Origin: Egibacter rhizosphaerae
GTDB lineage: Bacteria > Actinomycetota > Nitriliruptoria > Euzebyales > Egibacteraceae
Direction of reading: 5' to 3'
Assembly: GCF_004322855.1 (NCBI RefSeq)
Contig: NZ_CP036402.1
Coordinates: 2,046,001 to 2,110,000, forward strand
Length of the DNA stretch: 64,000 bases
The translations under genes were made by a program, and so were the position numbers. The notes beneath the pieces were generated by a model. It ran no database searches. It worked only from the letters and a program-made list of their open reading frames with translations, and was not told where the DNA came from. How positions within the stretch are numbered: position 1 is the first letter of the stretch; every line of letters begins with the position of its first letter. This document shows, in pieces, positions 33,459 through 37,682 of this stretch.

Positions 33459-33543
33459 ACAATTTGCGACCCGAAACGCGCGGCGCGGTTGACCCTCCCG
33501 CGACGTCAGGCCGCAGCCTTCGTCGAGCAAGGAGGTGGAACCC

Positions 33544-34302
33544 ATGCGATACACGGTCGGGGAGGTCGCCGAACTGGCGGGCGTCACGGTGCGCACGCTG
33601 CACCACTACGACGCGATCGGGCTGCTCGTCCCGAGCGAGCGCACCGCGGCGGGCTACCGCTGCTACACGTCCGAGGAGCTGGAGCGGCTGCAGCAGATCC
33701 TCGCCTACCGCGCGCTCGGGTTCGGCCTCGAGGAGATCGCGGTCCTGCTCGACGACCCGGCGGCTCGCCCGCGCGACCACCTCGCGCGGCAGCGGAAGAT
33801 CCTCGGCGAGCGGATCGCGCGGCTCGAGCACATGCTCGCGGCCGTCGACGAGGCATTGGAGGCCGACGACATGAACGTGAACCTGACACCCGAGGAGCGA
33901 CTCGAGCTCTTCGGCGACTGGCTGCCGGAGGACTACGAGGACGAAGCGTACGAACGCTGGGGCGACACCGACGCGTGGGCGCAGTCGAAGCAGCGCACCG
34001 CGCGGTACACCGCCGACGACTGGCGGGCCATCCAGGCGGAGGGCGCGGAGATCGAGCAAGGGCTCGCCGCCGCGCTCGCCGACGGGGAGGCGCCGGACAG
34101 CGAGCGGGCCATGGACCTCGCCGAGGCGCATCGGCAGCACCTCGTGCGCTGGTTCTACGACTGTGGCCACGAGATGCATCGGGGCCTCGGGCGCATGTAC
34201 GTCGACGACGAGCGGTTCACCGCCTACTACGAGCGCGTCGCGCCAGGTCTCGCCCGGTTCCTGCACGAGGCGATCGAGGCGAACGCCTCGCGCACCGCGT
34301 AA
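33544..34302 (+). CDS. MerR-family regulator with TipAS ligand domain
   Basis: A 252-residue regulator. The N-terminal MerR winged helix is clear (MRYTVGEVAELAGVTVRTLH, then YDAIGLLVPS, AAGYRCYT). It is followed by the dimerisation coiled coil (about residues 75-115) and a C-terminal TipAS domain (about 120-250), the globin-like fold that in Streptomyces TipAL binds thiopeptide antibiotics. Typical TipAS features are seen: WGDTDAWAQSKQRTARYTADDW and HRQHLVRWFYDCGHEMHRGL. Start ATG 33544 has a strong AAGGAGGT eight bases upstream. It likely activates its own promoter and perhaps drug-efflux genes elsewhere; the ligand is unknown. Confidence 0.92.
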   Translation: MRYTVGEVAELAGVTVRTLHHYDAIGLLVPSERTAAGYRCYTSEELERLQQILAYRALGFGLEEIAVLLDDPAARPRDHLARQRKILGERIARLEHMLAAVDEALEADDMNVNLTPEERLELFGDWLPEDYEDEAYERWGDTDAWAQSKQRTARYTADDWRAIQAEGAEIEQGLAAALADGEAPDSERAMDLAEAHRQHLVRWFYDCGHEMHRGLGRMYVDDERFTAYYERVAPGLARFLHEAIEANASRTA

Positions 34303-34317
34303 CACGAGGCGTTCGAC

Positions 34318-34629
34318 GTGCGCCGGTCCGTACCGCAGTCGAGTTTCGGCGACCGCGTGGTCGCCGTGGTCCGTGCACTCGGGCCCGGCGAGGTCGTGAG
34401 CTACGGCGACGTCGCGGCGGAGGCCGGCTCCCCCGGCGCCGCCCGGGCGGTCGGCCACGTGCTGCGCGAGGCCGACGGGCTGCCCTGGTGGCGGGTGGTC
34501 ACCGCCACCGGGCGCCTGGCTCCCGGCCTCGAGGTCGAGCAGGCCGCGCACCTACGGGCCGAGGGCGTCGCGGTCGCCGATGGCCACGTCAGCCGCGGAC
34601 CGCGTGACCGGCGACACTCGAACGAATGA
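34318..34629 (+). CDS. alkyltransferase-like protein (ATL, catalytically dead MGMT)
   Basis: A 103-residue protein of the O6-alkylguanine-DNA alkyltransferase fold. The DNA-binding helix region SYGDVAAEAGSPGAARAVGHV is conserved. The active-site motif PCHR of true methyltransferases is replaced by PWWR near residue 57, the hallmark of ATL proteins. ATLs bind O6-alkylguanine and hand lesions to nucleotide excision repair instead of repairing them. The GTG 34318 start gives the normal length. It is 15 bases after the MerR gene and likely co-transcribed. Confidence 0.88.
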   Translation: MRRSVPQSSFGDRVVAVVRALGPGEVVSYGDVAAEAGSPGAARAVGHVLREADGLPWWRVVTATGRLAPGLEVEQAAHLRAEGVAVADGHVSRGPRDRRHSNE

Positions 34630-34747
34630 TCGCCGGCTTGCTGCGCGAGGCCGACAGCCGCTGACGCCACAGCATCTCGGCATTGACGGTGCGGGCCCGC
34701 CGGTCGATCCTCGTCGCGAGCCCGGCACGCGGCCAGAGGGGGTGGAC

Positions 34748-35800
34748 ATGGTCACGCTGGCCGTCGGCACCGAGAAGGGCGGCTATCTCGTCGACGGCGC
34801 GCCCGACCGGGGGTGGGAGCTCGCCGGCCCCTTGTTCCCCGGTTGGAAGGTCACCGCATGGACCTCGCACGACGGCCAGACGATCGCGGCGCTGGCCAGC
34901 AACTGGTTCGGGGCCTCGATCCACCGCGCGCCCCGGTCGCGTCACGCCGACCCCGAGGCATGGCAACAAGCACCGGGGGTCCCGACGTACGAGCAGGACG
35001 CCGAGGGGGCTCCGCGCCTGCAGGAGATCTGGACACTCACCCACTGGGGCGATTCCATCGTCGCCGGAGTCGAGGACGCCGGCCTGTTCACCAGCGAGGA
35101 CGGGGGCGTGACCTGGCAGGGCGTCGAGAGCTTCAACATGCTCCCCGATCGTGCGAACTGGTTCCCCGGGCTCGGCGGCCTGGCGGCCCACCGGGTTCTC
35201 GTTGCTGACGGCCGTGCCTGGGTCGGCGTCTCGGCGGTGGGTGTCTTCCGCTCGGACGACGACGGCGCGACGTTCCGGCGCGTCGACGAGGGTGTCGCAC
35301 CCGTCATACCGGAGAGCGAGGAGGAGGGGACGCCCGCCGGGTGGTGCGTGCACGGTCTCGCCCACGATCCCCGGGATCCGGCGCGGATCTGGCGCCAGGA
35401 CCACTCCGGCGTCTACCGCACCGCCGACGGGGGCGACACGTGGGAGCGCATCGAGCGGGGTCTGCCGGCCGCGTTCGGCTTCCCGATGTGGCGCGACGAC
35501 GCGAGCGGCCGATTGTTCGTCGTGCCGCTGGAGGCCGACGAGAACCGGGTGCCGGTGGACGGCCGCTTCGGCGCCTGGTGCAGCGACGACGACGGCGACA
35601 GCTGGCGCCCGGCCGGGACCGGCTGGCCCGGCCATCCCACGTACACGGCCGTGCTGCGGGGCGCGCTGACCGGGGACGGCGACGGCGGCGTGTTCTGCGG
35701 CACGACCTCGGGCGCGGTCTGGGCCAGCGACGACGCCGGCGAGCGCTGGTCGCCGGTGCCCGTGACCCTGCCGCGGGTCCTCTCGGTGGCGGTCGTCTAG
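34748..35800 (+). CDS. BNR/sialidase-like beta-propeller protein
   Basis: A 350-residue protein made of repeated beta-propeller blades with Asp-box motifs: SEDGGVTW, SDDDGATFRR, TADGGDTWERIE, SDDDGDSWRPAG and SDDAGERWSP. These occur in exo-sialidases, Ycf48 and Vps10-like proteins, but the catalytic arginine triad of true sialidases is not evident. No signal peptide is present, so it is cytoplasmic. ATG 34748 follows AGAGGGGG; a GTG two codons earlier is possible. The TAG stop is four bases before a MoaD/ThiS-like gene, a coupling I recall from other actinobacteria. The function is unknown. Confidence 0.85.
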   Translation: MVTLAVGTEKGGYLVDGAPDRGWELAGPLFPGWKVTAWTSHDGQTIAALASNWFGASIHRAPRSRHADPEAWQQAPGVPTYEQDAEGAPRLQEIWTLTHWGDSIVAGVEDAGLFTSEDGGVTWQGVESFNMLPDRANWFPGLGGLAAHRVLVADGRAWVGVSAVGVFRSDDDGATFRRVDEGVAPVIPESEEEGTPAGWCVHGLAHDPRDPARIWRQDHSGVYRTADGGDTWERIERGLPAAFGFPMWRDDASGRLFVVPLEADENRVPVDGRFGAWCSDDDGDSWRPAGTGWPGHPTYTAVLRGALTGDGDGGVFCGTTSGAVWASDDAGERWSPVPVTLPRVLSVAVV

Positions 35801-35804
35801 CGCG

Positions 35805-36077
35805 ATGCCGGTGACCGTCCGCCTTCCGGGAGTCCTGCAGCCAGCCGTCGGCCGAGTGCGCGAGGTCGAGGTGGAGGCGTCGACCGTCGGCGACGCGATC
35901 GCGTCGCTCCTCGCCCGTCACCCCGAGCTCCGTCCTCACCTGTTCGACGAGGGCGGCGCGCTGCGGACCCACGTGCTCTGCGTCGTCGACGGCGAACCGA
36001 CCCGTCTGCGCCAGCCGGACCAACCGCTGCGTGCCGGCAGCGAGATCGCATTCGTCCCCGCGGTGTCGGGAGGCTGA
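35805..36077 (+). CDS. MoaD/ThiS-family ubiquitin-like protein
   Basis: A 90-residue beta-grasp protein ending in Gly-Gly (AVSGG), the activatable tail of sulfur carriers and prokaryotic ubiquitin-like modifiers. The body has the fold's pattern: MPVTVRLPGVLQPAVG, a helix VGDAIASLLARHPEL, and GSEIAFVPAVSGG. No E1-like (MoeB/ThiF), MoaE or JAMM gene is nearby, so neither molybdopterin nor thiazole synthesis is indicated. It is coupled to the BNR propeller gene. It may be a sulfur carrier or modifier for that neighbour; this is an inference from gene pairing. Confidence 0.85.
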   Translation: MPVTVRLPGVLQPAVGRVREVEVEASTVGDAIASLLARHPELRPHLFDEGGALRTHVLCVVDGEPTRLRQPDQPLRAGSEIAFVPAVSGG

Positions 36078-36149: not shown

Positions 36150-37682
36150 TCAGCAACCCGAGGACGGCGGGTTCCACACCGACGGGTCAAGGACCTCGAT
36201 GTGGACGTGCGGCCAGTCGTGGTGGCTGGACTCGTCGTCGACCTGCGATCGGAACGGGAACGGTCGAGGCCCGTCCGCGAGCAGCGTCTCACCCTGCACG
36301 ACCCGGTCGCCTTCGTTCACCCGTAGGCCGCGCATGTGCAGCACTTTGACCTCCCATTCGGGGCGGGAGTCGGGCGCGATCACCGCGAACCCGTCGTTGT
36401 GGCGGCAGTACAGCTGGTAGGTGCCGGTGCGGACGACCTCCCCGCTGACCGGCGAGCGCACCGGTCGGTCCGGGTCCATGACGACGTCGGCCGAGGACCG
36501 CGACGGCGCGTCACGGCCCCGGCTGTCGAGGGTGAGATGCGGTGACGCGGACGAGGCGGGCTGAAGTTGTTGCGCGCCGCGGTCGTTGGACTCGTGCCAG
36601 CCGATCAGCTCCACGAGCGTCGACGGCTGGTGCAGCGTGATGCCACCCGCGGAGGCGAACGGGGGCAACTCGAGCGCTCGACCGGCGTGCTCGCACACGT
36701 TCGCGGTCACGCTCGATCCGCAACGCAACTGCGGCCCGTTGGCGTTCGCGAGGAACGTCGTCGTCTCGTTCGGGAGACGGCCGCCCCGGGTGAGCACGAG
36801 CGCGGCCCCGGTCTCCGCGGCCCACGGGCCGGCCGCGAACCCCGCTGCCCAGGAGCCCTCGTCGTCGCCGTCGAGCAGCAACACCGAGGACGCGTCGCTG
36901 GCGTGGGCCACGCCCCGCCGCACGTTCTGCGCGACCGCAGTGCCACTGCGTCCCTGACCGGCGGCGCGCTCGGCGGTCACCCCGAGCGCGGCCAGTTCCT
37001 CTTCGACCGCTTCCGAGACGGCCGCCGAGCCACCGGCGATCACGACCTCGCGGGCATCCGCCTCCTGCAGGTAGGCGGCGACGTCCTCGTCGAGATTGTC
37101 GCTGGGGGTCAAGAGCACGGGGCCTGCCATGGCATGGGTGAGCGCCGAGCCACCGAGCGCGTCGACGAAGGCCTGCGTGCCCTCGCCATGGGCGCGGGCG
37201 AGCACCACGGTGGTGTCGCTCGCATCCGCGTGCCGTTCTCGGGCGACGGCCAACGCGGTCCCGACGCGATCCTCGCCCCAGTGCCGCTCGACCTCGTATC
37301 CCCGGGCGCGCAAGTCCTCCTCCACCTCGGGTGCGACGGCGGCGGGCCCACCGAGGATCGTCACCCGCTGCGCCCCGAGCCGATCGAGCTCCTCGGCGGT
37401 GAGCGCTGCGAGCTCGTCCGTGGGGGTGAGCAGGACCGGCTGGCCGGTGACCGAGCCCGCGGCGAGCGTGTCGCTGAACACGTCGGCTCGACCGAGCACC
37501 ACCTCCTCCACCGCGCCGTCGGGGTGGGCGAGCCGCGCGAACTCGACCGCGCTCGACACCGGATCGTCGCCGGTGAGCTCGTGGGCGTCCGTCTGATCGG
37601 CCGTCCCATCCGGAGCCCGGATGAAGAACGCGACGGCCAGCACCGCCAGCACCACTGCGACCCGCCCGACTGCTCGCGCCAT
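36150..37682 (-). CDS. exported CWB2-repeat protein with M23/LytM-like C-terminal domain
   Basis: A 510-residue secreted protein. Residues 1-30 are a signal/anchor (VAVVLAVLAVAFFI). Residues about 35-330 hold three cell-wall-binding type 2 repeats, recognised by ILGGPAAVAPEVEEDL and VIAGGSAAVSEAVEEEL blocks. Residues about 400-510 resemble an M23/LytM domain (VRSPVSGEVVRTGTYQLYC; closing HVHIEV with its HxH). The first zinc-binding His and its HxxxD motif, normally just before the SPVSG-like strand, are absent. The fold may therefore bind rather than cut peptidoglycan. It is convergent with the MoaD gene. It is the second CWB2 protein in the window. Confidence 0.85.
   Translation of the reverse strand: MARAVGRVAVVLAVLAVAFFIRAPDGTADQTDAHELTGDDPVSSAVEFARLAHPDGAVEEVVLGRADVFSDTLAAGSVTGQPVLLTPTDELAALTAEELDRLGAQRVTILGGPAAVAPEVEEDLRARGYEVERHWGEDRVGTALAVARERHADASDTTVVLARAHGEGTQAFVDALGGSALTHAMAGPVLLTPSDNLDEDVAAYLQEADAREVVIAGGSAAVSEAVEEELAALGVTAERAAGQGRSGTAVAQNVRRGVAHASDASSVLLLDGDDEGSWAAGFAAGPWAAETGAALVLTRGGRLPNETTTFLANANGPQLRCGSSVTANVCEHAGRALELPPFASAGGITLHQPSTLVELIGWHESNDRGAQQLQPASSASPHLTLDSRGRDAPSRSSADVVMDPDRPVRSPVSGEVVRTGTYQLYCRHNDGFAVIAPDSRPEWEVKVLHMRGLRVNEGDRVVQGETLLADGPRPFPFRSQVDDESSHHDWPHVHIEVLDPSVWNPPSSGC

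Follow-up and report, generated by a model that had tools for sequence, protein, structure and literature searches.

Molybdopterin synthase pairs a small Gly-Gly-tailed carrier, MoaD, with a dedicated larger partner, MoaE, and the two are found either as separate proteins or fused in MoaX, where the Gly-Gly lies inside the chain. The available text on MoaX reports that a protease cuts the fusion between Gly82 and Ser83 and that activity depends on both this cleavage and Gly82 (PMC4326299). The CysO-CysM-Mec system is built around an actinobacterial Gly-Gly carrier and an unlinked MoeZ-type E1, and a single MoeZR activates both the MoaD and CysO carriers according to the accessible part of PMC3227635. 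Dedicated ThiS paralogues are also encoded with the pathways for thioquinolobactin and pyridine-dithiocarboxylate siderophores, in biosynthetic gene clusters, and a pathway that lacks such a protein can borrow the carriers of others (PMC6225789, in the text available). A further precedent is the structure PDB 3B7F (Reut_B4987 of Ralstonia eutropha JMP134), for which the available portion of an Asp-box propeller survey gives the function as not known and mentions no carrier partner (PMC2716378).

The locus described here lies in the window, a 64,000-nucleotide stretch of the Egibacter rhizosphaerae genome, and consists of a propeller gene of the 3B7F family followed by a gene for a small Gly-Gly-ended protein. 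As in molybdopterin synthase, a Gly-Gly-tailed small carrier accompanies what would be a dedicated larger partner, the two are separate or fused depending on the genome, and the Gly-Gly lies inside the fusions. Unlike in molybdopterin synthase, the partner is an Asp-box propeller, MoaE is encoded elsewhere in the host genome, and it is genes that are observed here, whereas cleavage itself was seen in MoaX. The resemblance to CysO includes residues that follow the Gly-Gly in some carriers and an unlinked MoeZ-type E1, whereas no PLP-enzyme or JAMM gene adjoins the pair and the host has a separate CysO-like locus. The carrier would share with the siderophore ThiS paralogues its dedication to one pathway, but their biosynthetic clusters have no counterpart in a widespread third gene beside the pair.

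As far as the literature was searched, the pairing is undescribed; no description of it was recognised in a search that mostly covered papers outside subscription. One survey of beta-grasp proteins makes no mention of propeller, BNR, sialidase, glycosyl hydrolase or WD40 (PMC1779556). The available portion of another contains a single beta-propeller label in a domain-architecture figure, its organism absent from the legend, which may be an earlier sighting of such a fusion, and it foresees further beta-grasp proteins freed by proteolysis (PMC1949818).

The gene pair and its host genome

The propeller gene occupies positions 34748-35800 on the plus strand, with its ATG at 34748 and its TAG at 35798-35800, and is preceded on that strand by the purine-rich stretch AGAGGGGG (34735-34742), read as a plausible ribosome-binding site. 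A four-base spacer (35801-35804) separates it from the gene for a 90-residue MoaD/ThiS-type beta-grasp protein, also on the plus strand (35805-36077, ATG at 35805, TGA at 36075-36077). This small protein ends in PAVSGG, with the two glycine codons at 36069-36074. The first-pass annotation had proposed a cytoplasmic BNR propeller four bases from a Gly-Gly-ended MoaD/ThiS-like gene, and both the same-strand reading frames and the Pfam matches agree with it, as does the N-terminus of the propeller, where no hydrophobic leader is visible by eye.

The 350-residue propeller matches the Pfam BNR profile PF02012 at 30.5 bits (cut-off 27), and its AF2 model has a pLDDT of 88 and a pTM of 0.88. Comparison of this model with 3B7F gives Z 41.8 at 29% identity over 336 residues, the next entry reaching Z 25.9, and the profile match to 3B7F has an E-value of 1.4e-105; the best sequence matches thereafter are GH74 xyloglucanases. 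By full-length fold and sequence match, the protein is a member of the 3B7F-type seven-bladed Asp-box propellers.

The small protein matches the Pfam ThiS profile PF02597 at 49.3 bits, above the cut-off of 22.5. Its nearest NCBIfam families are SAMP1 and archaeal MoaD, both under cut-off; the SAMP1 equivalog NF041918 scores 54.7 bits against 60, and TIGR01682, the equivalog for MoaD of molybdopterin synthase, gives 24.6 against 66.15. A linked PLP cysteine synthase would be expected for CysO, but none of the eight window proteins scanned on either side of and within the pair matches PALP.

Other genes surround the pair. The next gene downstream, on the minus strand (36150-37682), encodes cell-wall-binding repeats (PF04122), and its product weakly matches M23 peptidase. 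Upstream, 34318-34626 encodes a 103-residue, alkyltransferase-like protein that is limited to the DNA-binding domain found in methylguanine methyltransferases (PF01035), and 33535-34299 encodes a MerR regulator that carries the antibiotic-recognition domain TipAS (PF07739).

The host genome is a single contig of 4.64 Mb, of which the window covers 2.046-2.110 Mb. Matches to the E1 profile PF00899 map to 4.10 and 3.55 Mb, with a sub-threshold one at 1.00 Mb, and the candidate at 4.10 Mb combines ThiF and rhodanese domains as MoeZ does. MoaE maps to 0.99 Mb and the JAMM profile PF14464 to 0.795 Mb, with a further match under its cut-off at 0.693 Mb. Since all of these lie outside the window, there is no E1, MoaE or JAMM gene near the pair, as the first reading had stated. 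Its treatment of the missing activating enzyme as a special trait is not borne out, because E1 is present elsewhere and the host's CysO-like and MoaD-like genes are also far from it, so that an unlinked E1 is ordinary in this organism.

Six genes of the host match PF02597, one of them the window gene. One stands beside PLP-enzyme and JAMM genes and is CysO-like, one is beside another PLP enzyme that is by inference of the threonine-synthase type, one lies in a thiamin-type setting, and one is MoaD-like and the sole gene typed in its stretch, these names being partly inferred; the sixth match is at 4.50 Mb with 33 bits. A further CysO-like carrier of the host genome (L143, 5751-6041), with six residues after its Gly-Gly, is found beside a PLP-enzyme gene. 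The genome also contains a second, more distant propeller at 0.220 Mb (L103, 4711-5007 and 5043-6140), with its partner gene after the propeller. This partner ends in IAGG, was detected with the profile built here and is not among the six genome-wide matches; scanned alone, it scores 22.6 bits against the cut-off of 22.5.

Availability of the shared enzymes was also assessed in other genomes. JAMM PF14464 is present in all 23 genomes tested, 22 with the pair and one (G119) without a propeller match; it is also present in 8 of 14 control genomes, so that the result shows only that the protease is available. No strong E1 was detected in some pair-bearing genomes, which are mostly incomplete, although G023 among them is 96% complete (of 38 candidates, 13 were scored). 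Judged by eye, MoaE has no clear association with the pair across genomes.

Distribution, gene order and the Gly-Gly tail

The phylum sample comprises 199 genomes including the host and contains 71 loci with a strong propeller homologue, defined by an E-value below 1e-30. A same-strand ThiS-type gene adjoins 65 of these 71 loci, two of them in the host genome, while a contig end truncates another (L117) and five, from one genus (L127, L132, L133) and another (L138, L139), have no carrier. Since a genome such as the host's holds only six PF02597 matches, this frequency is beyond chance. Among named genomes at least 564 relatives were found, and in the best 80 by score, which are not a fair sample, the carrier lies directly downstream at 22 loci. 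These 80 comprise 23 loci outside Streptomyces, one of them cut (L165), and 57 from Streptomyces, all 57 without a carrier in the sequence covered. The 22 paired loci include ones labelled Acidobacteria, Gemmatimonadetes, Eisenbacteria, Verrucomicrobia, Chloroflexi, Gammaproteobacteria, Binataceae and Actinomycetota, and metagenome bins make up many of them. The propeller of the gammaproteobacterial bin (L162) is nearly identical to that of a Gemmatimonadetes bin (L163), which suggests that one bin label is doubtful or that the gene moved recently; presence in Pseudomonadota therefore rests on records of the plasmid collection.

In that collection 45 records have a match, of which 14 were examined, and plasmid- or viral-collection loci contain a Gly-Gly carrier in 8 of 15 cases plus one carrier without Gly-Gly. 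The carrier is upstream of the propeller in Cupriavidus, Burkholderia (three loci), Paraburkholderia, Mitsuaria and Pseudomonas, and downstream in Arthrobacter, with Gly-Gly, and in Nonomuraea, without it. Three of the upstream carriers are annotated as MoaD/ThiS family protein beside an exo-alpha-sialidase or hypothetical protein. Three Rhodobacterales loci, one Streptomyces locus and one broken Paraburkholderia locus have no carrier, and the viral-collection scan returned one partial relative only (L228), without an adjoining carrier. A Pseudomonas aeruginosa plasmid record (L232) reads MoaD/ThiS family protein, then exo-alpha-sialidase, in carrier-first order. In Paraburkholderia phymatum (L241, 2992-4118) the propeller homologue extends over three reading frames and is probably a broken gene.

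A scan of one actinobacterial class found matches in 71 of 148 genomes. Its best 30 loci divide into 10 with a Gly-Gly carrier, one with a carrier lacking Gly-Gly and 19 with none within 1.5 kb; four of these loci, three from the 19 and one from the 10, belong to genomes counted before. A third conserved neighbour was sought in 93 loci, and only the propeller, ThiS and overlapping shadow frames proved widespread, other groups appearing in 4 to 11 loci. The recurrent pairing proposed from the window alone is thus seen across phyla, and conservation beyond close relatives, set beforehand as the test, holds both in the phylum sample and among the best named loci. Judged from these comparisons, the pairing is real, widespread, and either old or widely transferred. 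Strict linkage holds for most phylum-sample loci but fails in the 57 named Streptomyces, the three Rhodobacterales and other loci where the propeller stands alone.

The 87 scored pairs exclude L117 and comprise 71 propeller-first, 11 carrier-first and 5 fused arrangements, the window pair being unfused. All 87 partners were detected with profiles built outward from the window's small protein. In single Pfam scans 57 of them match PF02597 at an E-value of 0.001, no other family appears, and the remaining 30 are too divergent to reach this level. Within the phylum sample, 32 rows form a divergent clade that includes the second pair of the host genome, and seven of its members range from no match to 22.6 bits against PF02597 (cut-off 22.5). 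Rows of this clade are counted as partners because one Arg and the Gly-Gly, which are common to all 87 (alignment A7), are shared along with position and length, but these are weaker partners whose assignment rests mainly on the profile built here. In a poorly resolved carrier tree of 94 columns, the propeller-linked carriers do not form a clade apart from CysO-like carriers, and so no separate carrier family is claimed.

Gly-Gly is present in all 87 scored partners, at the very C-terminus in 65 and followed by further residues in 22 (the 5 fusions and 17 of the 82 unfused proteins). Some longer extensions may be artefacts of how the frames were read; residues after Gly-Gly are also found in the host's CysO-like and one other carrier. 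The five in-frame fusions (L096, L107, L120, L125, L131) all have the architecture ThiS-GG-linker-propeller, in which the linker can be as short as about four to five residues, and all keep the Gly-Gly, which thus lies in the same chain as the partner as in MoaX. A predicted fold of the pair joined into one chain, made with a short linker and with no more than three rows over ThiS, has a pTM of 0.81 and a tail of pLDDT below 50 that is not docked.

Invariance of the tail, which the first-pass annotation had made a condition of its proposal, stands for the scored partners and fails in two related loci outside that count, Nonomuraea gerenzanensis L234 (5075-5386) and its relative L243, whose partners end in PALA with exactly the Gly-Gly missing. 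Four loci of the same family group (L244-L247) have no ThiS-type gene within 1.5 kb, and the series has the look of a carrier decaying beside a propeller that persists. In the propeller tree, made by a quick method from 140 of the 187 rows described below with most Streptomyces rows omitted, a single clade (support 88) unites the fusions with the carrier-first loci. The solitary rows are interspersed with paired ones, a pattern suggesting that the carrier was lost repeatedly. Four genomes with a solitary propeller have four PF02597 matches each, and the 11 of these 16 that were scorable are similar to CysO, another CysO-like carrier, ThiS or MoaD; the borrowing of carriers documented in the available text of PMC6225789 would fit such solitary propellers.

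Conserved residues of the propeller

Conservation was read from 187 propeller rows of 330-420 residues, in which the window protein is counted twice. The set leaves out two cut loci (L117, L165), two partial or broken ones (L228, L241) and four from genomes already represented (L250, L256, L257, L259). The positions that never vary include T8, G11, W95, W138, H148, H202, Q217, H219 and R304 (187 of 187 rows), and F245 is kept in 184. In the model, W95, H148, H202, F245 and R304 are predicted to lie on the inner strands of successive blades with H219 on a following loop, a placement in which they should ring the mouth of the channel.

The invariant set is equally conserved in the 81 solitary rows, and for this reason it need not be the site at which a carrier tail docks; invariance in solitary lineages points to a pocket that would serve the propeller's own chemistry and not the carrier alone. 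In place of Cys200, each of the seven proteobacterial paired rows has Asp, which means that no cysteine persulfide is required at this position.

A proposed sulfur-transfer module and its alternatives

By analogy with the systems described above, the two genes may well form a sulfur-transfer module of a thiocarboxylated small carrier and a propeller that acts as its dedicated acceptor, a reading that is favoured but held tentatively. The Gly-Gly tail of the small protein would be adenylated and then thiocarboxylated by a MoeZ-type E1-rhodanese enzyme that the cell's carriers share and whose gene lies away from the pair. The tail would then enter a pocket on the central face of the propeller, lined by the invariant Trp95, His148, His202, Gln217, His219 and Arg304 and the nearly invariant Phe245, and hand its sulfur to a small-molecule substrate. 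The propeller would thereby do for its carrier what MoaE does for MoaD or CysM for CysO, without kinship to either. Fused polypeptides would be cut after the Gly-Gly as in MoaX, perhaps by a Mec-type JAMM protease, and lineages without the small gene would borrow CysO or MoaD or put the propeller to another use. It is also possible, and put forward with more reserve, that the sialidase-labelled propellers constitute an undescribed, widespread thiocarboxylate-dependent family, each a synthase for its own ubiquitin-like carrier and some made as precursors cut at the Gly-Gly.

The small protein could instead be a non-catalytic beta-grasp subunit that binds or regulates the propeller, with a tail that serves for docking and carries no thiocarboxylate. 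This is unlikely, although several observations fit it: the Gly-Gly is internal in the fusions, L234 and L243 keep the domain without it, the divergent partners score near or under the ThiS cut-off, no third gene is widespread beside the pair, and the propeller itself has the invariant Arg304 and His residues. Asp-box propellers are able to bind a C-terminal peptide, as sortilin does, and structure entries of YCF48 with the D1 peptide are on record. Against a purely structural role, the Gly-Gly found in every scored partner, fusions and divergent clade included, is the mark of E1-activated proteins, and host carriers with the same type of tail adjoin known sulfur-pathway genes.

A protein-tagging module, in which the small protein is conjugated to lysines in the manner of SAMP or Urm1 while the propeller serves to recognise either the tag or its target, is improbable. 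Propellers frequently serve as adaptors, and the Gly-Gly tail, the near-threshold SAMP1 score and the JAMM gene in all 23 genomes tested would suit such a module. The SAMP1 match nevertheless stays below its cut-off, the host's JAMM gene adjoins the CysO-like and PLP-enzyme genes and is thereby explained without tagging, and no third neighbour is widespread in the 93 loci, which were searched by recurrence rather than for E2 or E3 families by name.

Sialidases of family GH33 are marked by an [FY]RIP motif and by an Arg triad with a Tyr/Glu nucleophile. That the propeller is an ordinary sialidase or glycosidase with an incidental neighbour is very improbable and was rejected, despite the labels exo-alpha-sialidase or sialidase family protein that its homologues carry in public records and the GH74 xyloglucanases among its best matches, for the [FY]RIP motif occurs in 0 of 187 rows, the acidic positions conserved above 95% all lie, on the present reading, within Asp-boxes (two others reach 92-93%), which disfavours the database label, and the pairing is repeated across phyla, in both gene orders and as fusions.

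If the sulfur-transfer mechanism is true, the pair would be a dedicated sulfur carrier and acceptor in which the acceptor is an Asp-box propeller, a new kind in the short list of protein-thiocarboxylate pathways. A propeller family whose structure is solved yet unexplained would also gain a function, and the sialidase label in databases would be corrected. The fusions and the lineage that lost its Gly-Gly open the role of the tail to direct testing, and culturable soil bacteria carry the pair, for example Cupriavidus metallidurans CH34 (L229).
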